This document shows positions 3,890 to 27,068 of a stretch of 31,380 nt of DNA, in pieces; position 1 is the stretch's first letter; every line of letters begins with the position of its first letter. A program made the translations under genes and the position numbers. Under the pieces are notes generated by a model. That model was not told the origin of the DNA, searched no databases, and saw only the letters and a list, made by a program, of their open reading frames with translations. Source of the stretch: a virus; IMG/VR virus record IMGVR_UViG_3300027906_000080, positions 1-31,380 of that record. One strand, 5' to 3'.

Positions 3890-3901
3890 TGAACATGTTC
3901 A
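3890..3901. promoter_or_regulatory. 12-bp perfect palindrome before the virion operon
   Basis: TGAACATGTTCA is a perfect palindrome ending 19 bases before the first virion start codon, between an AT-rich stretch (TATATATTTG at 3869-3878) and the ribosome site. It could be a repressor or activator half-site pair. No convincing -35/-10 pair is visible nearby, so the promoter may lie upstream of the structured RNA. Confidence 0.35.
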
Positions 3902-3920
3902 AACCTTTTAGGAGATTTTA

Positions 3921-4307
3921 ATGGCCGCAATGTCAAATTATTTGGAGAATAAAGTCTTAGACTATGTTCTTCGCGATCAAGCAGATTGGGCTCCTGCCGC
4001 TGTGTATCTTTCGTTACACACGGCTGATCCTACTGATGCTGGTACTGGCGCAGAAGTATCTGGTGGGTCTTACGCCCGTCAAGCGATTACTTTTAATGCC
4101 GCTCACGCTACAGCAGGCACGATAGACAATTCGTCCGCTGAGGAGTTCACTAACATGCCGGGTTGCACTGTGACTCATATAGGTGTGTGGGATGCGGCTT
4201 CTTCGGGGAACCTTTTGTTTTTTGGTGCTGTGTCTGCGTCTAAGACTGTTACTGCTGGTGACACGATTTCGCTTGCGGCTGGTTCTCTAGATATAACTTT
4301 GGCTTAG
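3921..4307 (+). CDS. Gp80-like phage tail-fibre/appendage protein, 128 aa
   Basis: The frame starts at ATG 3921 with AGGAG six bases upstream, the strongest ribosome site of the operon. A second Met (MSNYLENK) lies three codons on but has worse spacing. The pattern MSNYLENKVLDYVL, then VYLSLHTADPTDAGTG, EVSGGSYARQ.ITF, VTHIGVWDA.SSGNLLF and a C-terminal AGDTISLAAGSLDITL matches a widespread small beta-rich phage protein. I know it as the Gp80-like family, annotated as tail-fibre or virion appendage. It probably forms part of a host-contact structure. It is the first gene after the structured RNA. Confidence 0.7.
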   Translation: MAAMSNYLENKVLDYVLRDQADWAPAAVYLSLHTADPTDAGTGAEVSGGSYARQAITFNAAHATAGTIDNSSAEEFTNMPGCTVTHIGVWDAASSGNLLFFGAVSASKTVTAGDTISLAAGSLDITLA

Positions 4308-4311
4308 TCTT

Positions 4312-4626: not shown

Positions 4627-4635
4627 GATTATTAT

Positions 4636-7765: not shown

Positions 7766-7773
7766 GAGATTTA

Positions 7774-9750: not shown

Positions 9751-11579
9751 TGGCGTATTCTTTTGAGGAAATAGTCGGAATAGTCCGACAGAGACAAGAC
9801 ATTCAGTCGCCTTTGTTATCAAAGATGATTGATATTAAAGAAAGGTATAACGGCGATTATGTTATACCTCTTCCTTCTATGGACGAAGAACCTGTTCTTC
9901 CACCATTAACTCCATCTTTGATCTCTGAGAATATTGATGCTGTAGCTCAAAGAGCCGCATCAGTAACCCCGTATATAGGTTGCCCTGCTGTTGACCCTAG
10001 CAAAGAACGTGGTAAAAGATCGAGACAATATGCTGATATTCGTAAACGTGCGCTTGCCGCTACTTGGTATCAGAATAAATACAAGTTAAAGATGCGTCGC
10101 GCTTACCGGCATCTCGCTGGTTACGCGACTACTGCTCTTGTAGTAAACCCCGATTTCAAAACAGGTATGCCTAAGATAGAGGTTCGTGACCCACTTGGCG
10201 TTTATCCTGAACCATCCGCGGCTGAGAATTATGATATTCCACGTAACTGTGCTTTCGTGTATGGCAAATCAGGTGATTGGTTAAGAGCTAACTATCCTGC
10301 TTCACGAGATGAAAATGGTGGACCGATAGCATCCGATAATAACGCACGGCAAGAACTATGGGATTGCTGTGAATGGATAGACGAGGAAGATATCGTCATC
10401 GGAATAATGGGACCACGTTACAATCATTTCAACCAAACGTACCCTTATCACAGCACACAGTTGGAACTGTCAAGGTATAAGAATCTTGCAGGGATGCCTT
10501 GTGTGATAACTCCGGGTCGTGTCACATTAGATAAAATTTCTTCTTCAGTATCGAACGTCGTTGGGATGGTCGATCTTATGGCAAAACTAATGGCACTTGA
10601 ACTCATAGCCCAAGAGAAAGCAATCTTCCCAGATCGCTACATCATCGGACGTTCGGGGCAAGTACCGATGATAGTAGGAGGTGAATGGAAAGATGGCAGG
10701 GAAGGCGAAGTTAATGTTCTCCTCGACGCGGAAGGGATCGGAGAGCTTAGAGGATCACCTGACCAGAATACGAACATCGCCATCGATAGGCTCGAACGTA
10801 ACGCCCGCGTATCGACAGGTACGGTTCCCCAAATTGGGGGAGAGAGTTATGGCGCTCTTCGCACTGGTAGGGGCATTGACGCTCTTATGGGTGCCGCTCT
10901 TGATCCAAGGATACAAGAACTTCAAGAGATCATGGAAGGACATCTTCCCCATCTAAACGAATGCTTATTCGCTACGTACAAAGGGTATTGGGGTAACAAG
11001 ACAGTATCTACATACACTGGTTACGCAGGCGACTTCGGACAAGTTGAGTTCACACCTAATGAACATTTTGAAACATTCGACAACGTAGTATCTCACTCAG
11101 TTCCGGGAGCAGATGTTCAGGGTACAACTATTCAGCTTGGACAGTTGTTGCAGATGAAAGGTATAAGCCTTGCAACATTTAGAACAAAGCATCCGTTTAT
11201 TGAAGATCCTGAAGCTGAAGGTAGAAGGGTTGACGAGGAACAATTAGAGGAAGCTGTTATGGCTGGTATACAACAGCAAGCAGTTCAAGGTACACTCCCT
11301 ATAATCTATATTGCTAAGATAGAGAAGTTCCGTAAAAAAGGATTTGATATTTTTGAATCTATCCAGAAAGCCGACGAAGAGATTCGGAAAGAACAAGCGG
11401 CGGCGGCTCCCCCTCCAGAAGAAGGACAAGTAATGGCTCCTGAAGAAGCGATGGGATTAGCTGGTCCACCTCAAGCGATACCACCTGAAGCAATGGCGGC
11501 TAGCGGTGCTACCCCACAACAAGGTTCACCACAAGCGGCTATGGCTCAAATGCAACAAGCGTTAATGGCAGGTGGCTAA
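9750..11579 (+). CDS. Portal protein, 609 aa
   Basis: The start is GTG at 9750, overlapping the TAG of terL by one base (TAGTG). The N-terminal part (ISENIDAVAQRAASVTPYIG, RRAYRHLAGYATTALVV, IEVRDPLGVYPEP), with a long helical central part and a segment around SGQVPMIVGGEW, fits the SPP1-gp6-type portals common in actinobacteriophages. The portal forms the dodecameric channel at one capsid vertex and docks the TerL motor. The last 75 or so residues are Ala/Pro/Gln-rich and probably disordered. Position directly after terL strongly supports the call. Confidence 0.85.
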   Translation: MAYSFEEIVGIVRQRQDIQSPLLSKMIDIKERYNGDYVIPLPSMDEEPVLPPLTPSLISENIDAVAQRAASVTPYIGCPAVDPSKERGKRSRQYADIRKRALAATWYQNKYKLKMRRAYRHLAGYATTALVVNPDFKTGMPKIEVRDPLGVYPEPSAAENYDIPRNCAFVYGKSGDWLRANYPASRDENGGPIASDNNARQELWDCCEWIDEEDIVIGIMGPRYNHFNQTYPYHSTQLELSRYKNLAGMPCVITPGRVTLDKISSSVSNVVGMVDLMAKLMALELIAQEKAIFPDRYIIGRSGQVPMIVGGEWKDGREGEVNVLLDAEGIGELRGSPDQNTNIAIDRLERNARVSTGTVPQIGGESYGALRTGRGIDALMGAALDPRIQELQEIMEGHLPHLNECLFATYKGYWGNKTVSTYTGYAGDFGQVEFTPNEHFETFDNVVSHSVPGADVQGTTIQLGQLLQMKGISLATFRTKHPFIEDPEAEGRRVDEEQLEEAVMAGIQQQAVQGTLPIIYIAKIEKFRKKGFDIFESIQKADEEIRKEQAAAAPPPEEGQVMAPEEAMGLAGPPQAIPPEAMAASGATPQQGSPQAAMAQMQQALMAGG

Positions 11580-12013
11580 TGGCAAGAACAATACCTAAAC
11601 CGGATATGGCAGGTGGAGCGCAACCAGCGAAGACTGATCCTAATGTAGTTTATGGTCAAGGTGGAGCTAACGTAGCGGCTCAGAATGAGATTCCTTTACC
11701 AGATTCTAGAGGGATTCCAAGAACCGTAGGTGGGACTGCTGAACAAGGACAAGTAACTCAACCTCCTTCAAATGCTTTAGAAGCGGCATCAGCATATCAA
11801 CCTAATGTTATGCCTATGAACGCTCCTGATGACCAACCTGATATGGATGTAACTGCTGGTCTTATGCGTAACTCTATGCGCCCTGAAGAAATTGAAAGCA
11901 GGAGGAATCAGATAGTTGAAGCAGAATTAGTTTCACGTATGGCGGCTGTGTCAGGAGATCCTTATCTTATTAATGCCGCAGAACGTCAGCGGGCTATCAG
12001 TAGAGCGCTTTAA
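11579..12013 (+). CDS. Small disordered protein between portal and giant protein, 144 aa
   Basis: The ATG overlaps the portal stop by one base (TAATG) and the stop overlaps the giant gene's ATG by one base. The first 90 residues are rich in Pro, Gly, Ala and Gln (PKPDMAGGAQPAKTD...), with no predicted fold. The C-terminal 45 residues (MRPEEIESRRNQIVEAELVS...) form a charged helix. A scaffold-like, head-completion or portal-associated function fits the position, but no motif proves any of these. I do not recognise a family. Confidence 0.6.
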   Translation: MARTIPKPDMAGGAQPAKTDPNVVYGQGGANVAAQNEIPLPDSRGIPRTVGGTAEQGQVTQPPSNALEAASAYQPNVMPMNAPDDQPDMDVTAGLMRNSMRPEEIESRRNQIVEAELVSRMAAVSGDPYLINAAERQRAISRAL

Positions 12014-15000
12014 TGGTTGAAAAATTAGGAGCAGGACCCGGACGAGGGGTCACTTCTGGACGTAGTGCAACACGCATTTATGGTAATAACAATAAGTATA
12101 CGCAAGCACAATCCATGGAAGATGAACGTCTTGCTATGCGTTGGCGTATGCTTGAACTTACAGGATTACAAAGTTTCAGCGATCAGTATGCTTCAATAGG
12201 GCTTGATCTAGTTCGTAGTCCTATGGACGATCAGCAAATCCAGAATGCGTTAGCGGCGGCTGTTGAAACAGAAGCTATTCCTAAAATGGTTAAACACATG
12301 AGAGGTTTAACCGACGATGGTCAAGACGCGATGTATATGAGTTTAGCTCCTGCTACTCAAAAAGTGTTGAGTTCAAATGGTTACGTACCACCAAATCTGA
12401 AAGCAGATGACGATTGGTGGAACCCATTTGATTGGGATGATATAGCGGGGAAAGCAATTAAACCTATAAGCATTCCTTTACAAATAGCGATGGCTCCATT
12501 CAGATATGGTTTAGCTCCTGTTGTACGTGGTGTGTGGGAAGGCATGGAAAAGAGTATGAGGTTGGGCTTACGTGTCCAACGGTCACTTGCTATGCAGTAT
12601 GAAGCTAATTTGGCTAAAACTAGCGGTGGCTTTAAAGGTCATTTCAGCGCAATGCGAAGCAGTAACTTAACAAATTTTAAAGAGAATTGGAAAAACGCAG
12701 AGTTTGAAAAAGCTTCGTTTACGAATAAAGCTAGAGAAGGCGCACAAGATTTATTAGACGACGAAGATTACCAAATTTTAATGGGTACTCTCAGACATGA
12801 AGGTAACTTCACAAAAGCCGCTACTGACTATTTTAAAGAAAGAGCGAAAGCAGAAGGTAACCCTGATCCAGAAGGTGCTGGGATTCTTGGTTTACACAAC
12901 TGGTTAGATAAAGGAAGTGTCAATACTAGAGAGTGGCTAACGGCGGCAGAAACTTTGCAACGTGGAAGTGTTGAAGCTGGTGCAATGTCTGTGCGTCAAT
13001 ATGATAGAACTTTAAGAACTCTGCATTTAACAGCATTAGATAATATGCGTATGCCTTTGACTGGATGGAATGTTGGCAACATGGGGCGTACAGGCGCGGC
13101 TGTAGGCGGGACTTTATTTTCCGCAGTTATGTTTGATCCTGTTACATGGGGAACGTTGGGTTACAGCGCTGTAATTAAAGGCGCGAGAATAGGTTTAACC
13201 GCGGCAGGTGCGGCGCAACATGCAGTTAAAATACGATCTTTGTATGAGATGTCTTCTGCTCATAGGGCTGTAAGACTTTTAGGAAGAAGCGAACAAACTC
13301 GTGAAAACGCTAAAGAAATTATTGTTGGTCTTAGAACAGTTAAAGGGAAAAAAACACCTGAACAGTTATTGAAAACTAAAGGTCGTGTAAAAGGTGTATT
13401 AAAACCTAAAAATTTACAAAAAGAACGCAACGCTTACATCGACGATTTTGAACCTAATTGGTTGGGTAGAACACCTTTCTATTTAAATCGACAACTAAAG
13501 CATATTGAAAAGAACATAGAAATGATTATGGATCATTTCGCCGCGCATGATGTATGGCTAAAAACAAACCAGTTATACAACTTGAACGGAATGAAAAATA
13601 TTGACAGCATAGATCCGTTAATTGATTTAGTTTCCAAACAGCCAAAACTTAACGGGCTTATAGAAGATCTCAAGCGTTACCACAACGCTATGAAACATTC
13701 AGGTATGAATGTAGATGATTATGATTTGATGCCAGCAGGGTTAAAAGTACCGGCAGAGTCAGTACCTTTAAGAGTTAAACAACCCGGATTAGATGAATGG
13801 GATGGTGTTTGGGCGTACCTTCAAAGCGAAAACGGTTTACGTGCTTTGTCTGCCACACCGTTTGGTAGAGCAGGTTTAGCTGGAAGAACAGAAAAATTCT
13901 TTTTCCCTAGGCTTACAAAAGCGTCGCAGATGCGTATCAATGTTCGTAAAGGTATGAATGTTTTCCTTGATAAAGCGGCATACAAGATGAAAGAAGTACA
14001 CCCGTTAGCTTTCGCACAGTCTGTTAATACTATGCGTACTGTACGCCAAGTTGGTCTTGTTAATAATTTATTTAAAAGAATACATAGTGTTAAAGGAGCG
14101 GCTGATGCATTTGATTTTAAAAACCCAGCTTCTGTTAAACGATTAACTCCAAATGATTTGATGGACGTTTTAGAAAGTACGGCTTCTAACGTCGGGCATA
14201 TAGCGGAACAAGGTGGTAGAGGCCCATCGTTTAATGAGACTAAACGAATTTTATCTCAATACGATTTAACGTCTGGTGATCTTCAAATCCTTAAAGATGC
14301 TTTTGTAAGAGATGTAGATTTAATGACCGAACAGGTTTATCAAGCCTATCAGAATCTAAAAAATGGTATCGAACCACAGGGTCTTGATCCAGATGTAGTT
14401 GAACTTGTTAGAAATGATTTACCTCAGTTCTCTGATTTCTTCACAGTACATACTGACAGATTTGGTGTTATCCGTTTCGATAAAGAAGGAAGAGCTATCT
14501 TCCCTAAGACTCGTGGCTTCATGCGTGGTGCGCGTCAAATGACAGCGAATCGTAAAAGCGCTATCGAAGGGAATGCTGGTAGTGCGAATGCGTCAAATGC
14601 TTTACCTAATCTAATTGAAACTTTAGCTCAAAAAACATGGGATGAAATAGCTGATGAAGGTATTGCTTTAACTGGTGCGAATACGCCTAGATTTAGAATG
14701 TTGCAAAATGCTGGATATGCAACACCAGCACAACTAATAGACGCAATAGAAACAAGTGGATACAGAAGTGTTGTTAGCAACCTTAATAAACAATCAGCCG
14801 CTAATATGGGCAGAAAAATAAAAGTAGCAGATCTTAAAAGCTTTATAAAAGATCAGTTAGGGATAGTGGTAAAGGAAAGACAATACTATGATTCTTTCGG
14901 TTCTATAACAGATAAAGGACTCGAAGTTGGTTACGCTCTTCTTTACCATCCGGTACGTTTAGCTGACAAACTTACAAAGATGGCTCCCCGTAAAGGGCAT

Positions 15001-18000
15001 ATTGACGTTGCAAGTAATGACGCTGTACGAGATTTTAAATCTTTATTAGACATGGGAATGAAAGCCGACATGGACAGGTCGGTATTAGATATGTATCTTT
15101 CTATATTCCTAAACGGAACTCCTGCACAAAGATGGGATGTCCAAAGCCATTTCTTAATGGATTTCCTTGGGAGAACAGGAGCGCTGGTTTATGGTGGTTC
15201 TGGAATAGAAAAATGGATGGGGCGTTTCATCAGACAAGGCGCACATCATTATTCAAACTTTGGGCAAGATCTTATTACATCAAGTGTTGGTAGAAGAAAC
15301 CGAGCGATAGTTCCGGGTGGTGCTAAAGAAGCACAAGTATCGAATTTGAATGTTATACCAAGTTGGCGTGAACTAGGCGAAGCCGCACGGTTTATGAACA
15401 TGATGAGTTTCCTTGGTTACGGTGGCACAAACGGTAAGTTCGGACCAGCTATTTGGGACAGGGTTATTGCTCGTTATTGGCGACCACTTGTACTTATGAG
15501 GTTAGGTGTTGGTGTACGAAACGCCGCAGATGAAGGGTTGCAATTCATTTTACGTGAAGGTCCAACTGCGTATGCTAACGCTAAGTTCGCTAAATATTCT
15601 TTGAATAGAGCTAAAGTATATGGTCCTTGGGGTGAATTGATGACGCAACCTGTTAGCGCAGAGACACGTAGATCTTTACTTTTCCGACCACTTAATAGAG
15701 CGTTACGTTTTGCACTTGATTCAACAGCAATCGGTGATGCTTCTATTACTAAACGTGCGGCTATGGAAGCTGAAAAAGAGATCGGTCATATATGGGGGAT
15801 GATGGATGCCGATAAAATTATAGATGCTATTAAAGTAAAGCGGTTAGAGATTGTCAAAGGACAAACAGCGTATAGAGGTTTAAATGCTAGAGGAAGATTA
15901 AACTCGCTTCTTGGTACTAACGGGCGACATTTAGATGATCCTAAAAGATTTCAATATGCAGGTTTGATGGGGATAATGGAAGCGCTTTCAAATCGTACTG
16001 CACGTACATTACATGCGATAACTCCTGAAATTCTTTCTAAACCAAAGTTAGCTAAAGGTGCTTTAAAACTTTTAAAGAGTGATGCAGATACTATGTTGCT
16101 TGCTGTAGAGAGACAGTTCTTAAATCCGATAGTTATGAACGCGGCATATGAAGGACTCTTTGGTGCTTATCGCTCTTACTATGGTCAGAATCATTTATCA
16201 GCTATAGACGAAATGTTGCAACTTAACAGTCGTGGCATAGGTACTACTCGTGGTTTATTGCCATATATCAAATTACAGAATAATAGTAGATGGGATGTTA
16301 TAAGTGACGTAACCGCAGAAGGAATGCAAAGAAGCGATGCTTTAGGACAGAACATTCTTATATATAAAAATGATCCATCTATGCAAACCATTGGGTTCGC
16401 ACAGTCACATTTTGTGGATGCTGATGTTTTAACTAATACAAATCGTATAGTTCAAGGAGAAAGCGGTCAGTCATTATTATACGAACTCGGTAAAGATGCA
16501 CGTTTTGAAGCGTCTGAAGTAACTAAGATGCTTGCTGGCGATGAGGTTCTTACTGCACGTATCGCGTATGACATGATTGAAGAGATCCCTCACGTTAAAT
16601 CAACATTACAAAAATATTACAATGAAGTGTCTTCATTGATGCATGGTTATTCAAGAGAAGCCATGATAACTATACCTAGAATAAATGTATCTAACGGAGT
16701 AGCTAAACCTATTTCTGTTAAAGCCGCTGAAAAAATGATAGCGCAAACACTTGCTCGTAATAGTCTTGAAAGCAAATTTCTATATAACGTATTGAGCTTA
16801 TTAAATAGATCAAATTTAGATACATACCATCCTAATACTTTCGCTTTTCTTGTAGGACATAGTAAAGACTCAACAGCTTTTACAAATAAAATAGATGATG
16901 TAATTCAAAAAGGTTATCAAGGTGCTGTAGATTATTTAGCTGGCACAGTTGATGGTGAACAAGCTTTAGAATCTCTTGTCCGTACAGGCGGTATGGATCC
17001 TATAACAACAAAAACTGTTGATCCTGTTTTACCAGATGAGATAGGTGTTTTCTTCCCGCATGTTGGTGGTGACACAGCGGCATTATTGACTTGGATGTTT
17101 GAAGAACAAACCACTCCAATCGGTAAACAAATGTTTAATAAATTAGAAGAGGCATTATCTACGCATGTTGGATTTGAAGAAGGTATGAAAGTTATGCACC
17201 TTCTTAACCCTATGAATCGGCCTTTTGGTTCTATCAAACCAACTCAATGGTTGAGTTTGCATATTGAACGTGCAGGCGAGTTAATGCAACGTGCTACACG
17301 AATGCAAAGTTCTGGTACAGTACAACAGTTTGCTAAAGAATTTGCTGTATTATTTAACGAACCTCAATTAGCTGACTATGTGGGTGTAAAAGTTCCTTTG
17401 CTTGCTGGCTCACATGATCTACCAGCTATGCGTGGTGTATTAAAAGCATTACATACTTGGAGAAAATGGATAGATGATACGGATATTATTCCTCCTCAAG
17501 TATCTCCAGTTAAAAATCCTAAAAGTAAATTAGTAGGAGAGGATTTCGCAGGAACGATTGTTCGTAGAAAAGTAAGTCGAGCAGAGCATCAGGCAGAACC
17601 CGGATTCGGCAGATATTATGGTTCGACTAGCGGTCATGCTTTCATGCGTCCTGACGGGACGATGAATTATGAAGAGAATCCTATAACAGTTCTTATTGTA
17701 GGAGATAGATGGGGAGATACTGCGAGTGTCCCTACTGGTTGGAGACAAAAAGTAGAAGATGGTATTCCTGTTCCTAACGAATGGGAACCTGATGCTAGTA
17801 ATAAATTTATGAGAACCAATTTAGATAAACGTGAATGGGTTGAAGAGGAAATAAGTAATCTTGCTCGTGCGTTAATGTCTTTACCTAAAGGTTCAAGAGT
17901 TAGGTACGCCGCACCTTCAGGCAAATCTGCTGGTTCTTCATATGATGTCTTCGGTAAAGTAGTTGATAAAGCGTTTAAAACTGTTACAGAAAAAAAGGGC

Positions 18001-21000
18001 GCTACTGTAAGAGATTTAGAATTAGCTATATGGCAAGGGTTAGGAGATTTCCCTCAAGATAAACATGGTATTGAAGAAGCTATTACTACTGTATTGAAAA
18101 AAGCAGATGATGGTAGCGTCTTGATTAAGCATCCGTTTGGGTGGGAAGGGACTTTACAAAAAGGAGATCATGCTAATGCGCGTGTGGCGGGTGTACGAGT
18201 TCGTGCAGAAAAATGGGCGCACGATACTAAGAACGGCAAAGCATACAATTTTCTTTTCAGAGAGTTAAGAGGTATTGATAATAAAACATTAGCTGAAGCT
18301 ATTGTAGAGTTTGAATTCAGACATCATTCGGCTATAAAGTTCGTTCCGATTAAAGGATTTCATTCCGATCAGATTGTTAGAGATTTAAAAAATGTTTTAG
18401 CTAATCGTCCTGCTGTATATAAAGGAGGAGATAATCCTAGCTTTATAAGCATGTCACGACTTGATGATGCTTGGGTGAATCCTAATACGAAAGAGCTTCT
18501 TGTTGAAAATATACCAGATGAGGATCTTCTCAGCATATTAATGTATGGAGTAGGCGCTCATGCAAATAAGTTTTACACACAGAAAATTTTTGGTTTAACG
18601 AAAAAGACAGCTTCTAAAAGATTTGATCGGTTAGATCAGATCGCTGAAGAATTGTATATGCGTGGCTATAATGTTTATGAAGAGACTCCACGATTGATGT
18701 GGTATAACTATTTAGATAGTCGTGATCCTTCTTTAAATCTTCCTTTAGAAATATCACCGCATGTTCGCGGGTTTAAAAACAGAGGTCAGAGATCTTTGTT
18801 TGATGCAGATGATATACCTGAAGGTATACGGTATACAGGTCCTCGCCCTTCAGTTACTCCTGATGAAAAAATGGCAGATCTTACAGGACAGTTAGATGGT
18901 GTTCGTGAGCAGATACAAATCGCTGAAGAGGAACGTGACATGTTCCGAATCATGCTTGAAGGAACTCTTGATGAACGTCCCTCACCTCTTGAAGTAGATT
19001 GGGATGATTCTAAATTACAAGCGTTAGATCAGATTCGGATAGAAGGATATGATTTAGAAGTAGAAGCTTTACGTGAAGCAGAATTTGATGTTCTAATTCA
19101 GATACAAGAGTTAGCTAAAGAACGAAGAAGTTACATTGAAATAGCTAGTAAAGAACCTGAAAGATTTAAAGACATAGAGCTTTTAGGTAAACAAGGCACC
19201 CAACAATTTCTTGATAAAACTCGTGAAGGATTGTTCGCTGACACAAGAGCGACACTTACCGAAGAGTTAGCTTTACTTAGAAAAGAATACAAGGAAGCAA
19301 ATTCGGGTCGTAAGTATTTAAACAATGACCCTGATTTTATAGAGAATCTAAAAGACAATAAGGATATTGTAGAAGAGTACCTTCACTATAAACTTCAAGA
19401 TAATAAAAAAGCATTAGACAATCTTTTTGAGATTGGGTATTTAGACGATGCAGAAGATGTCGATTATTTAGACACAGCAATTTATATTGCAAAAACTATG
19501 CGCGATGAAAAAGATCATTTTGAAGAACCTTGGAGTGCTTTAGCTAAATCTATTTCTGAAGAACGACCAGAAGATTGGAGAGCTTTCAGCGAAGCTCGCG
19601 GTTACACAGAAGAACAAATGGCTGTGTTTGAAAAGATGATGGAATCAACTGATGAGGCATTAGCTCGTGGTTACGACGAAGATGATATATGGAGTCTCAT
19701 ATATGACTTCAACGAAGACCATGATCTTAGAGATAGTTTAGCTGATCTTACTCCTACGCATTCTTTATTAGACGAATTGGAACAAGTAAAGAAACCATTC
19801 TATATGCCTGAAGAGATAAAAGAATTAGAAAATAAAATACTTGAGGCAGAAAAAAGACTTAGTTTAGATGGCACAACACCTAAACGAGACTTTATAGGAA
19901 CTATAGGTGGCACTAAAGGAAGCACAGGTTTACGCCGTATATGGCCTGAGCTTGATGAAGATATGCGTGTTCCTGATTTGGATCTTATCGCTGAACCATT
20001 TGCTTCTGTTGAAGAAATCTTTCCTAATGCATTGAGATACGACGAAGGCGTTAATCAGATACCAGAAGCAGATCGTCTTGATGTAGCGGATGTTTATGAC
20101 ACTTGGAAAGGTAATTTTGAACCTCTGTATTTTGGTGAAACAATGCCTACTGGGTATCGCGGAGGTAGAGATAGATTCTGGAATCGTCGAGGAGATGAAC
20201 GTCAAGCTACAGCAGGGGAGGGTTACGTTCGTGATCCTGACGCTCCTATTCCTCCGCAAAGTAAAACTGTAGGCGGTGGAGAAGGATTCCGTGGTGGCAA
20301 AAAAGGACAAAAGAGAGAATCTGCTAGATTCCCTCTTAGTCAGGAAATAGACCCTGAGTCAGGTTTATCTTTCCCTCTTAAAGCAAGAAAAGCAGAAGAA
20401 GTTTTAGATCCTGAAGACGCTAAGATGCTACGCAAAGAAGACATCGTTGGAAGAGAAGGTGTTCGAGAGTCTGAATGGCATGGTCCTCGTTGGGCTAAAC
20501 CTAAAAGAAAGCGCAGACCAGCGGCTCGTGGTGGATTAACACGTAAAGATTATGAAAGAGATTTTGTTGATCCCGGTCCTACAGGCGCGAACTGGTCGCC
20601 AACAGAAGGTCGTGCTGTTCCTAATGACGATCCTGTTGAAATGATCGACAGTGCTCAAGTTAACGCATTTAGAAATAATCAAGCTGGTGTAATGATTATC
20701 AACAATGAAGTTGATACTGTTCTTCCATTTTATAGGAACCAAACAAGACTAGATGTGATTCCTTCTCGAAGTGAAGCTCCTAAAGAATGGGCTAAACTTC
20801 CTGCTTGGTTACAAGGATTAGATACAAGAGCTAGGAAGAAAGGTATCCCTGTATCTTGGGATGCTAGGCAAGGTAAACCTTCTCATACTAAAAAGATTGT
20901 TAATTCACGTTTAAATAAAGCTTATCCAGATCATTTAGCTAATGAATCTATTTGGGTTCCTAGAGTAATAAGTGACTCTGGTAATCAATCACCTGCTGTT

Positions 21001-24000
21001 TACGGATTCTCTGCTGGAGATGTTGGTGGTTTAGACGAAGCTGATAAATTTTTGAGTGTTCACCCATCTGATTTGATTGGAGAACAAATAGATGTGATGG
21101 GTCACATAGATGAATTACCTACAACTGATCTTTATATGAATGAGAAGGGTGATTATTTGTGGTTAAGAGAAGGCCAAGAAAACTTACATCCTTCTTTTCA
21201 GAACGACATGAAGATAACTCAGATTAGCGGAAAACAAACAAAAGCTTCTGGTATAAAAAATCCTTTGTCTAATTATTGGGAGCATCCTAAAGGACTTTTC
21301 TTTAGAGGCAGGTTATTTAAAACAGCAGAAGGAGCTTATCAAGCATTTAGAACTGGTAGATATAGAAGTGGTTTCGATAATCTTACTGGCAATCAAGCAA
21401 GATCAAGAGCTTTATCATTTGAGGATCTCCCTATGGGGACAACTATCAAAGCTGAATGGTCTGTAAGCGGTGGCGGTAAAGTTGGTTCTTTGCCTCTTCA
21501 TCCAAAAATTAAAAAGGAATACAAGAATAATAGAATAGATGCAATTATGGAAGGTGACATAACTGGTCACACTGTTAGTTTTAAACACGCTAATAGAATA
21601 GAAGAAAACGACATAATCAAGTTATATGGTCGTGGTCAAAAACAACTTTTTGTAAGAGTCGAATCTAAAACCCCTACAAGCAAAATGGATCCTGCGGGTT
21701 GGGCGAAAATAGAAGGTGTTGATGAACAAGCGGCGAGAGTAAATTGGAAACAAAATAAGATTGATAAAGACAAGTCGATAAATATTAGTCGCGGTCATGC
21801 TCAAATCAAATTTAAAGTTGTTAGTGTTCCAGCTAATTATCCTTTAGCTAAAGGTAAGACTGCTGAAGTCGCGGCTAAAACACCTGAGTTTTATACAGGG
21901 CTTAATAAAATTGTTGGCGGTGGTCAGGTTGGTATACATCAAGCAGGTTTACGTGTCGCTCGTGCAATGGGTATTGAAACTGGTGGTAAAGCTCCTAAAG
22001 GTTGGCGAGTATGGGATCGTGCTTCTGATGCGCCTGCGAATGATCCTACTACATTGAAAGATTTTGGGCTTACAGAATCAGGTTCTTCTAAATGGGAGAT
22101 AAGAACTGAAGAGAATGTTTTAGGTTCACAAGCGACACTTATTTGGGATCCAAGAGTTTCAACTAAACACGGGACGAAAGAAAGTCAATTAAGTGGTGGA
22201 ACTAAATTAACATTAGACTTTGCTAAAAAACATAAAAGACCGTATTTAATTAACCCTTCGCATGACGAACTTGCTTTATGGTTAGAAGAAAAAAGAATCA
22301 AAGCATTAAATATTGCTGGTCCTCGTTTAAGAACAGGACAATTTGCTAATCCTTTAAGAGAAGAAGAAGAGTTTGAAGCTTTCCTTAGATCAGTTTTGAC
22401 GACGATACGAGACAGGAACAAGAAACAAGTTGGTGATGCTGTAAGCGACAGAGATTTACTTAAAGAGATTCTTTCTGAAAGATGGGATCAAGTTCCTGAG
22501 TTTAGAAAGTCGCTTCAAAATGCAGGAAAGTTTGTATTCGAGTCAGAGAACGAATGGTGGAGGGAAGTCTATCCTGATCTATTAACTGATTTGCGTAATG
22601 AAAAAGTTTTAGATAAAGAATTTATTAAAATAGATTCGCAAGTGAATGGTCCTGTTGACAAACTAAATATGGCTGAACACCAAGCAACAGTTTTGAATAC
22701 TGAAGCAGGAAGAATGTTTAGTACTAAAAATGATGAGGGTGCTACACGAGTTAATTATGTAGGTTTATTAGAGTTGCAAGATCAAATGCCTAATGATGGT
22801 ATGGGAAACAGGTTGAGTTTATGGAATGACGGTGATCTGCTACCTGAAAGAATGCTTGCTCGTGTTCCTATTTCTGCTCCTCCTACTAAGGATGAAAGAT
22901 TCCAAATGGTAATACGATCTTTCTTTGATGGTGCAGTACAACCAATTATCGCGGCGATGGCTCGTGAACCTATGTTCACACATTATTTTGCTGATTCTTT
23001 AGAATTGACTAGGGGCGTTAGATACTTTTACAACCATGAACCTCAAGCATTTAGATTCTTGCGTAAACGTACAGATGAAGTACCGAATCCTCCACAGTAT
23101 AAAAGATTAACACTTGATGGTGAATCAGATGTTGAACAAATAAAACTAGGTATACATCATGGTATAGATGATACAGGTGTTGAACAAACAAGTATCCCTG
23201 AATTAGATGAGTTTATTATTAATATGCGTCCACAAGCTGACGGTGTTTTACAAGGAACTCCCATAGGTAGAGTAGCTCAATATTTAGATGACTACACCCA
23301 AGGCATCCGAAGTAAAGAAGGAGTGCTTGAGGAATTATTTAAGATACAAACATGGGACGAGTTGGGTCCTAGTTTAAGACAAAAAACTTATGCTCTTAAA
23401 GATCAAGGTAAACAAGTAGACGCAATGAAAAAGGTAATACAAGGGCGAGCAGAACCTACTGGGTTATTCTTTGAAGCATTCCCTCAATACAGAGAACATT
23501 TTGTTGATATGTGGAATAGAAGCCAGAAATTTGATGATGGTAGATCTTATAGAACTCTAACTAAACAACTTGTTGAATATATAAATCTGAAATCTATACA
23601 AGAAAGAGAGCATGTTAATCTTGCTGTAGAACGTGCTATGTGGTTGACATCAGAATTTATTGATGACCACTCAGTCCGTTCATTGTTTCAAGAAACTGTT
23701 GGACTTCTACTACCTTTCTGGTTCGCTGAAGAACAATTCTTAAAGAGATGGGTTAAAACTTTAGAAACAAGACCGGATGCTATTCGTAATCTGCAAGCAT
23801 CATTACTTGCTTCACAAAGAAGTGGGTTAGTGTACACAGATAAAAACGATCAACAACGTATCATTCTTCCTGAAAGTGCGGTACTAGGACACGTGACAGA
23901 AGGGCTTGCTCACGCTCCTTATCTAAATAAATTATTTGGTAAAGATGGTGTGGGGATAATAAACGAAGATCTTTCTATGAGTTTAGCTAATCTAGTTCCC

Positions 24001-25410
24001 GGATATAACGAACAAACTGGGTTGCCTTCATTCGGTCCACCAGCGGCTATAGCTATTGGAGCTATGTCTTTACTAGATCCTTCTTTAAGAGGAGATGGTG
24101 TATGGGGTTGGGAAGATCATATGATAAGCAGATTCGGTTACGATTCAAAAGCTACAGATTTAATGTGGTCTAATGTAGTACCTGCTCCCGTGGCAAAACT
24201 TATAAGTGGAACTCTTGGATATGAAACTCCGGGTTATGCAGGTGGTAGAGCTAAAGCTAATCTGAGTGTGGTAGAAGCTATGTGGGCGCAAGGTCAGTTC
24301 CCTGATGCTACTTCTTTAGCTGATAGTTCAAACCCTGCTCTTCTTGAAGAAAGCATTCTACAAGGTATAGATCATGCAGGTAAACAATTACAATTCTTGC
24401 AGAATCTAACTTGGTGGGGTGGTTTCACTACAGCAACTCCTAAAGATATGACTGCTGGTGGTTTATGGGAATGGAACGAAGTCTTTCAATCCTTTATGGA
24501 TTCTGGTTTACCGCATGAGGTTGCTTTTGAAAAAGCTCTTGGGATCTATTGGAAGAAATTCTATATTGATAGCGAAGCGGCAGGTATGACTCCTGATGCT
24601 ATTACAAAAGAATGGTGGATGAGCGAGCTTCCTAAGTTCTCTATATTCCAATCAGGTAAATCAGATAAAGTTTCTGTAGCTAGACAACCTTCTACACGAG
24701 CGGCTTTAGATTGGATGGAAGATAATAAAGGATTCTTAGAAGCATTTTCTTTAGCTGGACCTTTCTTTATACCTGCTGGTGACACTGAAGAAGATAGTGA
24801 AGCTGTTTCTGAAGCGAGAAAATTGCAACTTTCTTTAGGTTTAAGAATTGAAAAAACTGTACCTGAATATGTTGAGAGTCTTTTAATCTCGTCAGCTTCT
24901 ATTGCTTATTACAGCAGGAAAGAAGATTTTGATACGAAGATTGCGGCGGCTCGTGTAGCTGGTGACGATAAGTTAAAAGAAGGTTTAGAAGAAGAATGGG
25001 GTTATTGGTCAGATAATTTTAAAGCTATGCATCCTACGTTTGAGCAATCGTTATTAACTCAGGAATCTAAAGGGCGTAGAAGTAACACTATAAATCAATT
25101 CCATATGGTATTAAATAACCCTGATTTAGTACCTGAAGATACTCCGCATCGTGAAGATATTTTTATGGCCATGACAGCTATAACAGAATTTGATACAAAA
25201 TACCAGTTGTTATCAGGAAGACAAGATGGTATAGCATCTGACCAGAGAAACGCACTAAAGTATGATTACAATGAATGGTTTAAAGTTGCGATACTTAATC
25301 GTCCGTGGCTTTTCCCATTCTATTATAACTTATTTGTACCTATGATAGAAGAAGGTTGGATTATTAAAATGGAAGCTGGAATGTATCCTGAGTTGACAGG
25401 AGCCGGATAA
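12013..25410 (+). CDS. Giant 4465-aa virion-associated polyvalent protein
   Basis: This uninterrupted 13.4-kb gene encodes roughly 500 kDa. The N-terminal part (1 to about 1850) is mostly helical virion-like sequence. It has a DWWNPFDWDDIA motif (134-145) and a hydrophobic Gly/Ala-rich stretch near 355-400. VLIVGDRWGD (1893-1902) may start a degenerate Rossmann domain. A charged coiled-coil region covers about 2285-2620. Residues 3075-3145 look like half a NADAR domain, 3165-3272 an ASCH domain and 3298-3440 a cpYpsA-type SLOG domain. The C-terminal part (3460-4465) returns to internal-protein-like sequence, including LLLPFWFAEEQFLKRWVKTL, as in large polyvalent proteins. Enzymatic domains between virion-like flanks suggest a protein packaged in the capsid and injected with the DNA. 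No T7-type RNA polymerase motifs were found. ATG overlaps the previous stop. Confidence 0.85.
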   Translation: MVEKLGAGPGRGVTSGRSATRIYGNNNKYTQAQSMEDERLAMRWRMLELTGLQSFSDQYASIGLDLVRSPMDDQQIQNALAAAVETEAIPKMVKHMRGLTDDGQDAMYMSLAPATQKVLSSNGYVPPNLKADDDWWNPFDWDDIAGKAIKPISIPLQIAMAPFRYGLAPVVRGVWEGMEKSMRLGLRVQRSLAMQYEANLAKTSGGFKGHFSAMRSSNLTNFKENWKNAEFEKASFTNKAREGAQDLLDDEDYQILMGTLRHEGNFTKAATDYFKERAKAEGNPDPEGAGILGLHNWLDKGSVNTREWLTAAETLQRGSVEAGAMSVRQYDRTLRTLHLTALDNMRMPLTGWNVGNMGRTGAAVGGTLFSAVMFDPVTWGTLGYSAVIKGARIGLTAAGAAQHAVKIRSLYEMSSAHRAVRLLGRSEQTRENAKEIIVGLRTVKGKKTPEQLLKTKGRVKGVLKPKNLQKERNAYIDDFEPNWLGRTPFYLNRQLKHIEKNIEMIMDHFAAHDVWLKTNQLYNLNGMKNIDSIDPLIDLVSKQPKLNGLIEDLKRYHNAMKHSGMNVDDYDLMPAGLKVPAESVPLRVKQPGLDEWDGVWAYLQSENGLRALSATPFGRAGLAGRTEKFFFPRLTKASQMRINVRKGMNVFLDKAAYKMKEVHPLAFAQSVNTMRTVRQVGLVNNLFKRIHSVKGAADAFDFKNPASVKRLTPNDLMDVLESTASNVGHIAEQGGRGPSFNETKRILSQYDLTSGDLQILKDAFVRDVDLMTEQVYQAYQNLKNGIEPQGLDPDVVELVRNDLPQFSDFFTVHTDRFGVIRFDKEGRAIFPKTRGFMRGARQMTANRKSAIEGNAGSANASNALPNLIETLAQKTWDEIADEGIALTGANTPRFRMLQNAGYATPAQLIDAIETSGYRSVVSNLNKQSAANMGRKIKVADLKSFIKDQLGIVVKERQYYDSFGSITDKGLEVGYALLYHPVRLADKLTKMAPRKGHIDVASNDAVRDFKSLLDMGMKADMDRSVLDMYLSIFLNGTPAQRWDVQSHFLMDFLGRTGALVYGGSGIEKWMGRFIRQGAHHYSNFGQDLITSSVGRRNRAIVPGGAKEAQVSNLNVIPSWRELGEAARFMNMMSFLGYGGTNGKFGPAIWDRVIARYWRPLVLMRLGVGVRNAADEGLQFILREGPTAYANAKFAKYSLNRAKVYGPWGELMTQPVSAETRRSLLFRPLNRALRFALDSTAIGDASITKRAAMEAEKEIGHIWGMMDADKIIDAIKVKRLEIVKGQTAYRGLNARGRLNSLLGTNGRHLDDPKRFQYAGLMGIMEALSNRTARTLHAITPEILSKPKLAKGALKLLKSDADTMLLAVERQFLNPIVMNAAYEGLFGAYRSYYGQNHLSAIDEMLQLNSRGIGTTRGLLPYIKLQNNSRWDVISDVTAEGMQRSDALGQNILIYKNDPSMQTIGFAQSHFVDADVLTNTNRIVQGESGQSLLYELGKDARFEASEVTKMLAGDEVLTARIAYDMIEEIPHVKSTLQKYYNEVSSLMHGYSREAMITIPRINVSNGVAKPISVKAAEKMIAQTLARNSLESKFLYNVLSLLNRSNLDTYHPNTFAFLVGHSKDSTAFTNKIDDVIQKGYQGAVDYLAGTVDGEQALESLVRTGGMDPITTKTVDPVLPDEIGVFFPHVGGDTAALLTWMFEEQTTPIGKQMFNKLEEALSTHVGFEEGMKVMHLLNPMNRPFGSIKPTQWLSLHIERAGELMQRATRMQSSGTVQQFAKEFAVLFNEPQLADYVGVKVPLLAGSHDLPAMRGVLKALHTWRKWIDDTDIIPPQVSPVKNPKSKLVGEDFAGTIVRRKVSRAEHQAEPGFGRYYGSTSGHAFMRPDGTMNYEENPITVLIVGDRWGDTASVPTGWRQKVEDGIPVPNEWEPDASNKFMRTNLDKREWVEEEISNLARALMSLPKGSRVRYAAPSGKSAGSSYDVFGKVVDKAFKTVTEKKGATVRDLELAIWQGLGDFPQDKHGIEEAITTVLKKADDGSVLIKHPFGWEGTLQKGDHANARVAGVRVRAEKWAHDTKNGKAYNFLFRELRGIDNKTLAEAIVEFEFRHHSAIKFVPIKGFHSDQIVRDLKNVLANRPAVYKGGDNPSFISMSRLDDAWVNPNTKELLVENIPDEDLLSILMYGVGAHANKFYTQKIFGLTKKTASKRFDRLDQIAEELYMRGYNVYEETPRLMWYNYLDSRDPSLNLPLEISPHVRGFKNRGQRSLFDADDIPEGIRYTGPRPSVTPDEKMADLTGQLDGVREQIQIAEEERDMFRIMLEGTLDERPSPLEVDWDDSKLQALDQIRIEGYDLEVEALREAEFDVLIQIQELAKERRSYIEIASKEPERFKDIELLGKQGTQQFLDKTREGLFADTRATLTEELALLRKEYKEANSGRKYLNNDPDFIENLKDNKDIVEEYLHYKLQDNKKALDNLFEIGYLDDAEDVDYLDTAIYIAKTMRDEKDHFEEPWSALAKSISEERPEDWRAFSEARGYTEEQMAVFEKMMESTDEALARGYDEDDIWSLIYDFNEDHDLRDSLADLTPTHSLLDELEQVKKPFYMPEEIKELENKILEAEKRLSLDGTTPKRDFIGTIGGTKGSTGLRRIWPELDEDMRVPDLDLIAEPFASVEEIFPNALRYDEGVNQIPEADRLDVADVYDTWKGNFEPLYFGETMPTGYRGGRDRFWNRRGDERQATAGEGYVRDPDAPIPPQSKTVGGGEGFRGGKKGQKRESARFPLSQEIDPESGLSFPLKARKAEEVLDPEDAKMLRKEDIVGREGVRESEWHGPRWAKPKRKRRPAARGGLTRKDYERDFVDPGPTGANWSPTEGRAVPNDDPVEMIDSAQVNAFRNNQAGVMIINNEVDTVLPFYRNQTRLDVIPSRSEAPKEWAKLPAWLQGLDTRARKKGIPVSWDARQGKPSHTKKIVNSRLNKAYPDHLANESIWVPRVISDSGNQSPAVYGFSAGDVGGLDEADKFLSVHPSDLIGEQIDVMGHIDELPTTDLYMNEKGDYLWLREGQENLHPSFQNDMKITQISGKQTKASGIKNPLSNYWEHPKGLFFRGRLFKTAEGAYQAFRTGRYRSGFDNLTGNQARSRALSFEDLPMGTTIKAEWSVSGGGKVGSLPLHPKIKKEYKNNRIDAIMEGDITGHTVSFKHANRIEENDIIKLYGRGQKQLFVRVESKTPTSKMDPAGWAKIEGVDEQAARVNWKQNKIDKDKSINISRGHAQIKFKVVSVPANYPLAKGKTAEVAAKTPEFYTGLNKIVGGGQVGIHQAGLRVARAMGIETGGKAPKGWRVWDRASDAPANDPTTLKDFGLTESGSSKWEIRTEENVLGSQATLIWDPRVSTKHGTKESQLSGGTKLTLDFAKKHKRPYLINPSHDELALWLEEKRIKALNIAGPRLRTGQFANPLREEEEFEAFLRSVLTTIRDRNKKQVGDAVSDRDLLKEILSERWDQVPEFRKSLQNAGKFVFESENEWWREVYPDLLTDLRNEKVLDKEFIKIDSQVNGPVDKLNMAEHQATVLNTEAGRMFSTKNDEGATRVNYVGLLELQDQMPNDGMGNRLSLWNDGDLLPERMLARVPISAPPTKDERFQMVIRSFFDGAVQPIIAAMAREPMFTHYFADSLELTRGVRYFYNHEPQAFRFLRKRTDEVPNPPQYKRLTLDGESDVEQIKLGIHHGIDDTGVEQTSIPELDEFIINMRPQADGVLQGTPIGRVAQYLDDYTQGIRSKEGVLEELFKIQTWDELGPSLRQKTYALKDQGKQVDAMKKVIQGRAEPTGLFFEAFPQYREHFVDMWNRSQKFDDGRSYRTLTKQLVEYINLKSIQEREHVNLAVERAMWLTSEFIDDHSVRSLFQETVGLLLPFWFAEEQFLKRWVKTLETRPDAIRNLQASLLASQRSGLVYTDKNDQQRIILPESAVLGHVTEGLAHAPYLNKLFGKDGVGIINEDLSMSLANLVPGYNEQTGLPSFGPPAAIAIGAMSLLDPSLRGDGVWGWEDHMISRFGYDSKATDLMWSNVVPAPVAKLISGTLGYETPGYAGGRAKANLSVVEAMWAQGQFPDATSLADSSNPALLEESILQGIDHAGKQLQFLQNLTWWGGFTTATPKDMTAGGLWEWNEVFQSFMDSGLPHEVAFEKALGIYWKKFYIDSEAAGMTPDAITKEWWMSELPKFSIFQSGKSDKVSVARQPSTRAALDWMEDNKGFLEAFSLAGPFFIPAGDTEEDSEAVSEARKLQLSLGLRIEKTVPEYVESLLISSASIAYYSRKEDFDTKIAAARVAGDDKLKEGLEEEWGYWSDNFKAMHPTFEQSLLTQESKGRRSNTINQFHMVLNNPDLVPEDTPHREDIFMAMTAITEFDTKYQLLSGRQDGIASDQRNALKYDYNEWFKVAILNRPWLFPFYYNLFVPMIEEGWIIKMEAGMYPELTGAG
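17680..18420 (+). other. Possible degenerate Rossmann/SLOG-like segment in the giant protein
   Basis: Residues 1893-1902 read VLIVGDRWGD, similar to the first strand of YspA-like SLOG domains (V.VTG.R.W.D). It is followed by a helix (REWVEEEISNLARALMSLPK) and VRYAAPSGKSAGSSYDVFGK, which could be the second strand and glycine loop. The similarity is short and the glycines do not all match, so this is only a suggestion. Confidence 0.25.
21235..21447 (+). other. NADAR-like segment in the giant protein (residues 3075-3145)
   Basis: KNPLSNYWEHP (3082-3092), then FRGRLFKTAEGAYQAFRTG (3097-3115) and LTGNQARSRA, follow the N-terminal half of NADAR/YbiA domains (N.LSNFY..., F.G..F.T.EHAYQA.K). E3106, Y3109 and Q3110 fall at conserved positions. 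The second half expected of a full-length domain of about 150 residues is not apparent, because the ASCH-like domain starts soon after. NADAR proteins act on ADP-ribose or related groups; activity here is unproven. Confidence 0.6.
21505..21828 (+). other. ASCH-like domain in the giant protein (residues 3165-3272)
   Basis: The order RIDAIMEGDITGHTVSF (about 3174-3190), EENDIIKLYGRGQKQLFVRV, AGWAKIEGVD (3228-3237) and RGHAQIKFKVV (3260-3270) matches the ASCH/PUA-like barrel: I.AI..G..T.T.R, GD.I......G....V.V, W..LEG and a final Y/H-Q-I-x-F strand. ASCH domains bind RNA or modified nucleosides, and some hydrolyse acylated cytidines. Confidence 0.6.
21904..22332 (+). other. cpYpsA-type SLOG domain in the giant protein (residues 3298-3440)
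   Basis: IVGGGQVGIHQAGLRVAR (3300-3317) is followed by GIETGGKAPKGWR, WEIRTEENVLGSQATLIW (3361-3378), SGGTKLTLDFA (3394-3404) and RPYLINPS. The GGQ-x-G-x-D/H start, the TGG..PKG loop, the RT..NV.....TLI strand and the SGGT..T nucleotide loop together define the circularly permuted YpsA branch (also labelled putative molybdenum carrier) of the SLOG superfamily. The usual Asp in GGQTGVD is His here. SLOG domains bind nucleotides or nucleotide-derived signals. Confidence 0.85.
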
Positions 25411-27068
25411 TGGCAAATGGTGACGATGCAGGTTCTGGAGAAGAAACAACTACAACTTCTACAATTCCTCCAACTCCGGGTAGTGCTGGAGGTAATTCAG
25501 GCGGTACTACGGATCAGCAAACAAATGTTTATAGGCATATGTATCTGGCTTCGAGTGGTAACAACGCGTCTTTCACACGTTTAATTAACTTACTTTTAGA
25601 TAACAAAGTTTATGTACAAAATATGTTTGGTGAGTCTGATCGTGCGGCTGGGCATCAAGACGTTTTCGGTTTAGGTTTTGACAATATAGGTGCGGCTACA
25701 AACATGGAAATGGTTGATCTTCAAACTGATGAAGGTAGAAGCACTATTAAAAAATATCTTGCTGAAAGAGATGGTGTATCACCAGATAAAATAACAGACG
25801 CAATGCTTGATATGGAAATTGGCTCTAATCGTTTCTTGTATAAACTTCCTGAAGCTTTTGCAGGTGACTCATATCTAACTGATACAGCTAAAGAATCAGG
25901 TCCTATGGGTCTTATTGCTTCTTTAGATGGCACTCCTTATGGCACGGTTAGTACTGTTCGTGAAGCTTTACTGGGTATGGATTTGCATAGATCAGCTATA
26001 GATACACATATGAAAAGTTTACAGGAAATGAGTCCTGAAGGTTTCAGAGGTGTTCAAGCTGAGTTAATGATGCTTGGTTACTACGATCAAATTGCTAACC
26101 CCGCTGAAGGCATTGATGTTGTTTGGGGACAAGCAACAGAGATAGATCGTTTGGCATGGAATAGTTTCATTCAAGATCTTATAAATACTTCTTTAGAAGA
26201 AGGAGACAGGGCGCGGTCAGCAGGTATTAAACCTTCTGATTGGGAAGGTATAAGTTTTGATGACCATATAAATAAACGTTTCCATGAAAGAATGGAAAAG
26301 TTTAGACAAAACACAATCACTCCATCTGAAAACCCTTCTTCTGATACATATTTATCTATGAAGACTAGATTAAATAGTGCTATAGAAGAGATAACAGGGT
26401 CTGATGATCCAGCTTTAACTGATGCAATAGATCAAACTCTTACTAATCTTATATCTGAAGGTGAAATAAATATTAGTGAAGCTTTAAATCAGGATATTTT
26501 AGGGTTTGCGATTTCAGATGAAAACGTAGCTAAAGCGGATGCTTTCTTGTATGAGTTTTTCGGTGGAGAAAACTGGGAAGATAACATAGTTTTAGGTGCA
26601 AATGGTAGTGCGAGTGAGCTTAAACGCATAGCAAAAGAAGCAGGGGTAGATACAAATGTGCATCCTGTGTTTGGTGCAGAAGCAAGCTCAGATGGCAAGA
26701 AGCAGATGGCGCGTTACTTCTTTCATATTTTAGATCAGAATGCTGGGCAAGGAGATATGTATCGTACTGCACAATTATTTGCTAATAGTTTTGGACAGAT
26801 GCATATGCAGAATCAAGGCATGTCTTCTGACAGTATAGAAGCAATAATGAAGAAGTTAGACACCGTAGAATGGCATCCAGCTTATGCAGGAAGTATGCAT
26901 GACGCTAATATTGAAAGGTTAGCCGCGTTTGATTCGATAGAGAAACGAGTTCAAAGTGCTATGGATCTCACTGAATGGGATGAAAAGACTGACCAAAAAG
27001 ACAGAGTAATGATAGATGTTCTTCGTGGTCTAGGTGGCAGTGGTCAAAGAAGGAGTAGGTTCGCATGA
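25410..27068 (+). CDS. Probable internal/injected virion protein, 552 aa
   Basis: The ATG overlaps the giant gene's stop by one base (TAATG), with GGAG upstream inside that gene. The first 40 residues are a Thr/Gly/Ser-rich disordered head. The rest is mostly helical, acidic and without cysteines in motif positions. A segment near 225-265 (VQAELMMLGYYDQ...VWGQATEIDRLAWNSFIQDL) matches the 'LQ..L...GYYD......WG..T..A...F...L' pattern I associate with virion proteins of actinobacteriophages. No enzyme motif was seen. The C-terminus is Arg-rich (RRSRFA). Its role is inferred from position between the giant protein and the muralytic protein. Confidence 0.6.
   Translation: MANGDDAGSGEETTTTSTIPPTPGSAGGNSGGTTDQQTNVYRHMYLASSGNNASFTRLINLLLDNKVYVQNMFGESDRAAGHQDVFGLGFDNIGAATNMEMVDLQTDEGRSTIKKYLAERDGVSPDKITDAMLDMEIGSNRFLYKLPEAFAGDSYLTDTAKESGPMGLIASLDGTPYGTVSTVREALLGMDLHRSAIDTHMKSLQEMSPEGFRGVQAELMMLGYYDQIANPAEGIDVVWGQATEIDRLAWNSFIQDLINTSLEEGDRARSAGIKPSDWEGISFDDHINKRFHERMEKFRQNTITPSENPSSDTYLSMKTRLNSAIEEITGSDDPALTDAIDQTLTNLISEGEINISEALNQDILGFAISDENVAKADAFLYEFFGGENWEDNIVLGANGSASELKRIAKEAGVDTNVHPVFGAEASSDGKKQMARYFFHILDQNAGQGDMYRTAQLFANSFGQMHMQNQGMSSDSIEAIMKKLDTVEWHPAYAGSMHDANIERLAAFDSIEKRVQSAMDLTEWDEKTDQKDRVMIDVLRGLGGSGQRRSRFA

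Follow-up and report, generated by a model that had tools for sequence, protein, structure and literature searches.

The window analysed here, a viral contig of 31,380 bases, encodes a 4465-residue protein that we read as a large ejection-type protein inside the virion of a podovirus-like lineage, injected into the host and carrying an exchangeable cargo of ADP-ribose/nucleotide and nucleic-acid-repair domains. We give this reading, which is drawn from sequence comparison, a probability of about 0.62. The giant protein would be packaged with the genome, would thread through portal and tail as a chain of loosely joined domains, as has been proposed for the beads-on-a-string N4 virion RNA polymerase (vRNAP), and would bring in a ready-made kit as the phage enters. 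In the relatives, the NADAR and SLOG domains of the kit may deal with ADP-ribose or nucleotide derivatives, ASCH may act on modified bases and AlkB on alkylated or methylated nucleic acid, and the kit would serve counter-defence and the protection of entering DNA. In the sub-lineage of the window, the degenerate domains may bind or sequester a ligand or recognise nucleic acid.

The giant gene lies among genes of virion type, as follows.

3921..4307, + strand: fibre protein of the podophage GP4 gp80 type (Pfam PF23140, E 1.4e-43)
8062..9750, + strand: terminase large subunit (tblastn against annotated phage terminases, best E 4e-40)
9750..11579, + strand: portal protein (PHROG 104 portal, E 1.8e-8; HMM to the Immanuel3 portal, 2e-14)
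11579..12013, + strand: small conserved gene of 144 aa in the interval between portal and giant (HMM matches at the same place in relatives)
12013-25410, + strand: giant protein gene, 4465 open codons, 4465 aa
25410..27068, + strand: g552, conserved 552-aa gene after the giant (HMM across relatives)
27065..28402, + strand: g445, 445 aa, with a lytic-transglycosylase-like motif (HMM 6e-11 to Immanuel3 gp12, annotated 'glycosylase')
28402..29382, + strand: g326, conserved 326-aa virion-block gene (phrog_6654, E 1.3e-14; Immanuel3 gp11, E 2.9e-22)
29386..30744, + strand: g452, conserved 452-aa virion-block gene (phrog_8424, E 6.9e-24; Immanuel3 gp13, E 3.6e-19)

The giant frame overlaps the genes at 11579-12013 and 25410-27068 by one base each. 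It is not an assembly artefact, since homologues, complete or cut by the contig end, recur on many other contigs. The earlier note, made from the letters of the window, had described a single 4465-residue frame in a virion-type setting, between portal and internal-protein genes. That description holds: the frame is open from 12013 to 25410, adjoins the terminase/portal block, and its operon has a homologous counterpart in cultured podoviruses. The order terminase, portal, small gene, giant, g552, g445, g326, g452 is homologous to the block of the Streptomyces Beephvirinae, one member of which, Abafar, is podoviral by TEM (PMC11536984). Immanuel3 and Abafar have homologous portal, giant-position, glycosylase-like, g326 and g452 proteins; they differ in encoding at the same place a giant of their own, of 1649 aa, with weak homology to that of the window (N-core HMM 1.4e-4). 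Podovirus-like morphology is also supported by the fibre protein of the GP4 gp80 type. A PDB search for a lysozyme or SLT domain in g445 found none, and this gene is assigned through its homology to the Immanuel3 'glycosylase'. Profile searches of the giant against PHROGs and NCBIfam gave no match, nor did a near-identity DNA search for the window among phage records or a tblastn search of phage records with giant residues 1-2992. A tape-measure reading of the giant was set aside: its gene comes after the portal in a block of podovirus type, and the BFVD rows for tape-measure proteins are at chance level.

A terminase scan found 170 related contigs, 80 of which were kept, and wherever the contig is long enough the terminase is followed by the portal, the small gene and the giant gene. 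The viruses of this lineage infect bacteria, are uncultured and come mostly from the sea; about 50 related contigs show a conserved chassis and a variable bay. In an alignment of 25 giants, two conserved parts (residues 1 to ~1540 and ~3550 to 4465) flank a bay of ~2000 residues that is missing from the short giant forms. The giant of the window divides as follows, with the cargo domains between the last two rows.

12013..16512, + strand: N-core, the N-terminal chassis, residues 1-1500 (MAFFT of 25 giants; blastp)
16555..18072, + strand: module of residues 1515-2020 (blastp with residues 1515-2020 as query)
18073..21243, + strand: first part of the bay, residues 2021-3077 (absent in short forms; no Pfam or NCBIfam match)
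22660..25407, + strand: C-core, the C-terminal chassis, residues 3550-4465 (conservation, AlphaFold)

The N-core is kept in all relatives, short and long forms aligned together, most strongly at about residues 951-1250. The module matches L089 2669-3182 and L090 2398-2927 by blastp; it precedes the cargo in the window and follows it in relatives L088-L090, and the cargo therefore docks on either side of it. The fastest-evolving stretch of the giant is residues 2020-2620 (dN/dS 0.42). The C-terminal 736 residues were recovered in 23 of the 24 records tested first, where giants range from 2529 to 4486 aa; an alignment scan with the C-core gave 53 loci, and the giant of ct2KA10 has the C-core in common (1.3e-30). 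The AlphaFold model of the C-core (pLDDT 68) is nearly all helix, which, together with the conservation of both ends across the clade, bears out the earlier impression that the ends look structural. A profile search of the PDB with the C-core gave chance matches only, and fold comparison with the PDB gave no match (best Z 6.8, a value that carries no meaning for helical proteins). Six uncharacterised viral proteins in BFVD, of which three bear the label uncultured Caudovirales phage, do match it (E 1e-4 to 4e-8); these six are probably unannotated relatives. In L125, the giant is split at the bay position into overlapping ORFs, 4486-9015 (1510 aa) and 8897-12541 (1215 aa), with N-core and C-core apart.

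Pfam scans of the relatives' bays found cpYpsA, an AlkB-type 2OG-Fe(II) oxygenase, DUF7831, NADAR and YspA, with HHH in one; clade HMMs were used to map these families plus an ASCH-like domain in all giants. The bay families across relatives are thus NADAR, ASCH, cpYpsA, YspA, an ALKBH3-like AlkB and DUF7831. Thirteen bay architectures were counted, and some relatives have no bay. Examples are given below, braces marking nested insertion.

Window: NADAR{ASCH,cpYpsA}
L119: ASCH..DUF7831..NADAR{cpYpsA}
L122: AlkB-cpYpsA-ASCH-DUF7831-NADAR
L136: cpYpsA-ASCH-AlkB{ASCH}-DUF7831
L153: YspA-ASCH-AlkB-DUF7831-NADAR
L155: NADAR-AlkB-cpYpsA

Two pairs that are near-identical in the C-core tree differ by one module each: DUF7831 is present in L167 and not in L151, and ASCH lies inside AlkB in L136 and not in L137. 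The distribution of long and short giants needs at least three changes on the same tree. Comparison of the relatives shows that bay domains are gained, lost, reordered and nested. The single preformed effector set imagined from the window gives way to a changeable cargo, which includes AlkB and DUF7831, both absent from the window.

The AlkB module of the relatives has human ALKBH3 as its closest solved structure in the PDB (1e-20) and keeps HxD...H...RxNxTFR, that is, the HxD, the second His and RxNxTFR. Human ASCC-ALKBH3 is an alkylation-repair complex. The closeness of the phage AlkB to ALKBH3 and the joining of AlkB to ASCH in one relative recall this complex; the likeness is a parallel only, as the phage combination comes without the helicase and shared ancestry of the combination is unsupported. 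DUF7831 occupies residues 2274-2395 in L153. A query running from DUF7831 to NADAR has homologues in more than 100 phages, whose hosts are mainly Caulobacter, Rhizobium and Roseobacter-type bacteria; among the matches listed, hits fall on the DUF7831 part.

In the window, the bay ends in one NADAR domain split by two others.

21244..21417, + strand: N-terminal half of NADAR, residues 3078-3135 (clade HMM E 3e-20; BLAST to L105, L109, L102b)
21499..21825, + strand: ASCH-fold domain, residues 3163-3271, inserted in NADAR (clade HMM E 5e-29; VIA-align)
21898..22341, + strand: cpYpsA/SLOG domain, residues 3296-3443, inserted in NADAR (Pfam PF12694; 3imk fold; alignment)
22399..22605, + strand: C-terminal half of NADAR, residues 3463-3531 (clade HMM E 2e-22; contiguous with the N-terminal half in L105 and others)

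The three domains had been described as standing in a row; all are present, with ASCH and cpYpsA nested inside a split NADAR. Similarity to all three within residues 3075-3440 was found by different routes: through relatives for NADAR, through the fold for ASCH and by Pfam for cpYpsA. One ORF of 4465 aa therefore holds at least two domains of disparate biochemical type.

Searched directly with Pfam, the NADAR region at 3078-3135 gave a weak match to Phage_30_3 (gp30.3 type, E 0.02). Against L105, the window NADAR scores 2.6e-9 by BLAST, and residues 3080-3133 and 3464-3546 match neighbouring stretches of one unbroken NADAR in that relative. In L155, NADAR (PF08719) lies above the Pfam cut-off (E 2.2e-10), with E. 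coli YbiA as best PDB match (3.7e-6). The identity of the window NADAR is confirmed by way of these relatives. An AlphaFold model of residues 3060-3560 (pLDDT 81), whose folds were compared with VIA-align, gives both halves high pLDDT; the NADAR fold does not appear in the VIA-align list because SLOG and ASCH rows filled it.

Pfam ASCH (PF04266) has no match in the window copy; among 10 aligned clade members, four match it below threshold (best E 0.0023). Separate ASCH fragments, misaligned in A2, were left out for structure prediction. The modelled window domain resembles E. coli YqfB (Z 8.9), PH0355 (8.4) and the E. faecalis activating signal cointegrator (ASC; 7.6), and ASCH or ASCH-like structures make up most of VIA-align ranks 2-9 and 11-13, at moderate Z of 6.4-8.9. 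The model thus has an ASCH/PUA-like fold, from which the ASCH call is made. For cpYpsA, the identity is certain from profile and modelled fold: residues 3300-3439 match PF12694 at E 1.6e-18 (67.3 bits against a cut-off of 26.2), and the model superposes on 3imk with Z 20.9 and an rmsd of 2.4 over 150 aligned residues. This copy is 46% identical to the separate-ORF copy of L128 and 36% to that of the tree sister L119, in which cpYpsA also lies inside NADAR; the closer match to L128 suggests that the window cpYpsA was replaced or independently inserted.

These findings support the earlier proposal that the domain families are tied to ADP-ribose or nucleotide chemistry. Catalysis by NADAR involves a Glu, a Lys seven residues later and a third residue that is Glu, Asp or His, being His in phage NADARs (PMC11543638, PMC11125620), and an E. 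coli phage NADAR of the gp30.3 type acts on guanine-ADP-ribose DNA in vitro (PMC11125620). In the window motif TAEGAYQAFR, the Glu is kept and the Lys is replaced by Arg; further on, the phage-type catalytic His is replaced by Phe and the Asp by Asn. Its sisters have E, K and F at the three catalytic positions, and all three residues are intact in L119, L149, L151, L153 and L155; the intact form reads TAEGAYQAWK ... ITHPVKDTFW in several relatives. Because of these losses, the removal of ADP-ribose from DNA guanine, which the earlier note had ascribed to this domain, is doubtful for the phage of the window, and it is plausible for the relatives. The amidohydrolase residues of the YqfB ASCH domain are Lys21-Thr24-Arg26-Glu74 (PMC6972931); at the first three positions, which were compared, the window has I/H/V and the relatives R/T/R. 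The SLOG loop SGGQxGxD reads GGGQVGIH in the window and GGGQIGID in its sisters, and is kept in other relatives.

Between the window and its sister L001, dN/dS is 0.135 for NADAR, 0.227 for ASCH and 0.261 for cpYpsA, close to the 0.16-0.18 of the core. By this measure, purifying selection is keeping the three domains of the window despite the loss of signature catalytic residues. Taken together, lost residues and purifying selection make ligand binding or sequestering, or nucleic-acid recognition, more likely than catalysis in this sub-lineage. The same two observations would fit the bay domains being structural or DNA-binding filler, the giant being purely an internal-core or ejection-channel protein that co-opted enzyme-like domains and has no effector role in the host. 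We consider this unlikely, even with the length constraint described below on its side: the AlkB of the relatives keeps its full motif, the E, the K and the phage-type His...D..W are intact in their NADAR, and SGGQxGxD in their cpYpsA; whole enzyme domains come and go between near-identical chassis, which is odd for a scaffold; and one member, L162, carries an ART-PolyVal domain.

In the phages with short giants, a separate ORF of 1239 to >2700 aa lies between g445 (or g552) and g326.

L128:15706-20166: separate ORF, 1487 aa, with NADAR and cpYpsA
L144:14171-22273: separate ORF, at least 2701 aa, with NADAR and cpYpsA
L162:15348-19379: separate ORF, 1344 aa, with ART-PolyVal above cut-off
L129:15765-19481: separate ORF

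An added ORF in the block is also present in L169 and L170. In several short-giant relatives, g445 itself is enlarged by an insert of ~600-1150 residues without known family, as in the following four, and L145 has a longer g552 instead.

L127:14622-18860: g445 with insert
L154:14214-18038: g445 with insert
L143:14597-17482: g445 with insert
L146:11780-14716: g445 with insert

Since NADAR and cpYpsA stand on a separate ORF in two relatives and need not be packaged there, the domains might do their work in the cell that produces the phage, by protecting phage DNA or by late blocking of defence, say, their fusion to a virion protein being incidental. That NADAR and SLOG are mostly standalone in other phages (PMC9503650), and so in the Molly/Colly phages, is in keeping with this. 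Such a role nevertheless seems highly improbable, as the separate ORF is still inside the virion operon and most of the genomes with cargo, deeply diverged as they are, have it fused. Against our main reading, several short-giant phages with no recognisable nucleotide-handling domain (L143, L146, L145, L154, L127 and L169) apparently thrive.

The summed length from giant to g452 averages 5665 aa over 22 non-redundant loci with a CV of 0.10, against 0.25 each for the giant and the remainder. This sum varies less than in permutations (p 0.0001), the rows being related, and L095 and L148, both far shorter, are exceptions. The idea of a constant total was strong in a hand-picked set and weaker in the automatic set, and is therefore kept as a side observation; the near-constant length is possibly a payload limit. 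An extended form of the injection reading would see a generic delivery chassis whose payload, capped by the capsid or ejection machinery, could shift from the giant to a separate ORF or to neighbouring ejection genes, and back, with the sum staying near 5,700 aa; the dead NADAR, ASCH and SLOG of the window's lineage would, once injected, act as a sponge that soaks up immune signals of ADP-ribose or nucleotide type. We regard that form as distinctly unlikely.

RNA is among the possible targets of the ASCH and AlkB families. This would suit a giant that is mainly an early-takeover protein like N4 vRNAP or T4 Alt, directed at host transcription or RNA, with NADAR, SLOG, AlkB and ASCH as RNA-repair or regulatory additions and no part in counter-immunity. 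An association of NADAR with RNA-repair contexts has been described (PMC9503650), and in its size of several thousand residues, podovirus context and multi-domain layout the giant resembles the vRNAP of N4 (Schitoviridae), a giant podovirus protein proposed to go through the tail in beads-on-a-string form, together with two other ejection proteins (PMC12633501). The two differ in cargo, and no sequence similarity between them was found. With the chassis fold partly modelled, no RNA polymerase family was detected in Pfam searches that admitted E values up to 1 (whole giant) or 10 (pieces). We regard an early-takeover function as very unlikely.

Our preferred reading, an injected virion protein with exchangeable cargo, finds its nearest counterpart in the polyvalent proteins (Iyer 2017, PMC5512222), which are likewise very large, multi-domain, encoded among late or virion genes, endowed with disparate activities and predicted to be injected. 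The likeness in architecture that had been suggested stands, and extends to the ART-PolyVal domain (PF18760) on the separate operon ORF of L162; Pfam scans of the window giant, whole and in pieces, found no PolyVal domain. The accompanying statement that polyvalent proteins link these very domains does not: word searches of the 2017 paper found no NADAR, SLOG, ASCH or AlkB (PMC5512222). The giants differ from that paper's set in their cargo of NADAR, SLOG, ASCH, AlkB and DUF7831, and in holding it in one defined bay within a conserved chassis, nested domain in domain. As the paper is silent on the first four, this cargo set and the defined exchange bay are new. The giant probably works like, and belongs with, the polyvalent virion proteins. 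It was a paper of 2022 that put forward counter-defence by NADAR and SLOG: these and similar phage domains are proposed there to degrade ADP-ribose-type immune signals, and some of them to be packaged in the head (PMC9503650). Those viral NADAR/SLOG/Macro systems (Iyer 2022) contain the same families as the giants, often combined; they are described as 'typically standalone' in phages, and the text searched has no giant virion chassis and no AlkB or ASCH partner (PMC9503650).

If the giants are ejected, the lineage amounts to a natural series of protein-delivery experiments with one chassis and many payloads, and would show which domain boundaries, including nested ones, survive passage through a podovirus tail. 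Counter-defence by ADP-ribose, SLOG and AlkB domains would then move from standalone early genes to virion cargo that predates the first transcript. The window and its intact relatives also offer matched catalytic and degenerate pairs of NADAR, SLOG and ASCH for comparing enzyme with sponge. As to the host, the only relative from a genome collection, L170 (PBPE01000058.1), belongs to the bin of a Dehalococcoidia MAG from the Red Sea, a weak hint of a Chloroflexota host for the lineage. Just upstream of the terminase, at 7145-7765, the window also encodes a 206-aa Ala/Ser-rich protein made of repeated segments such as SASLTAVIVEEASIASAIS.
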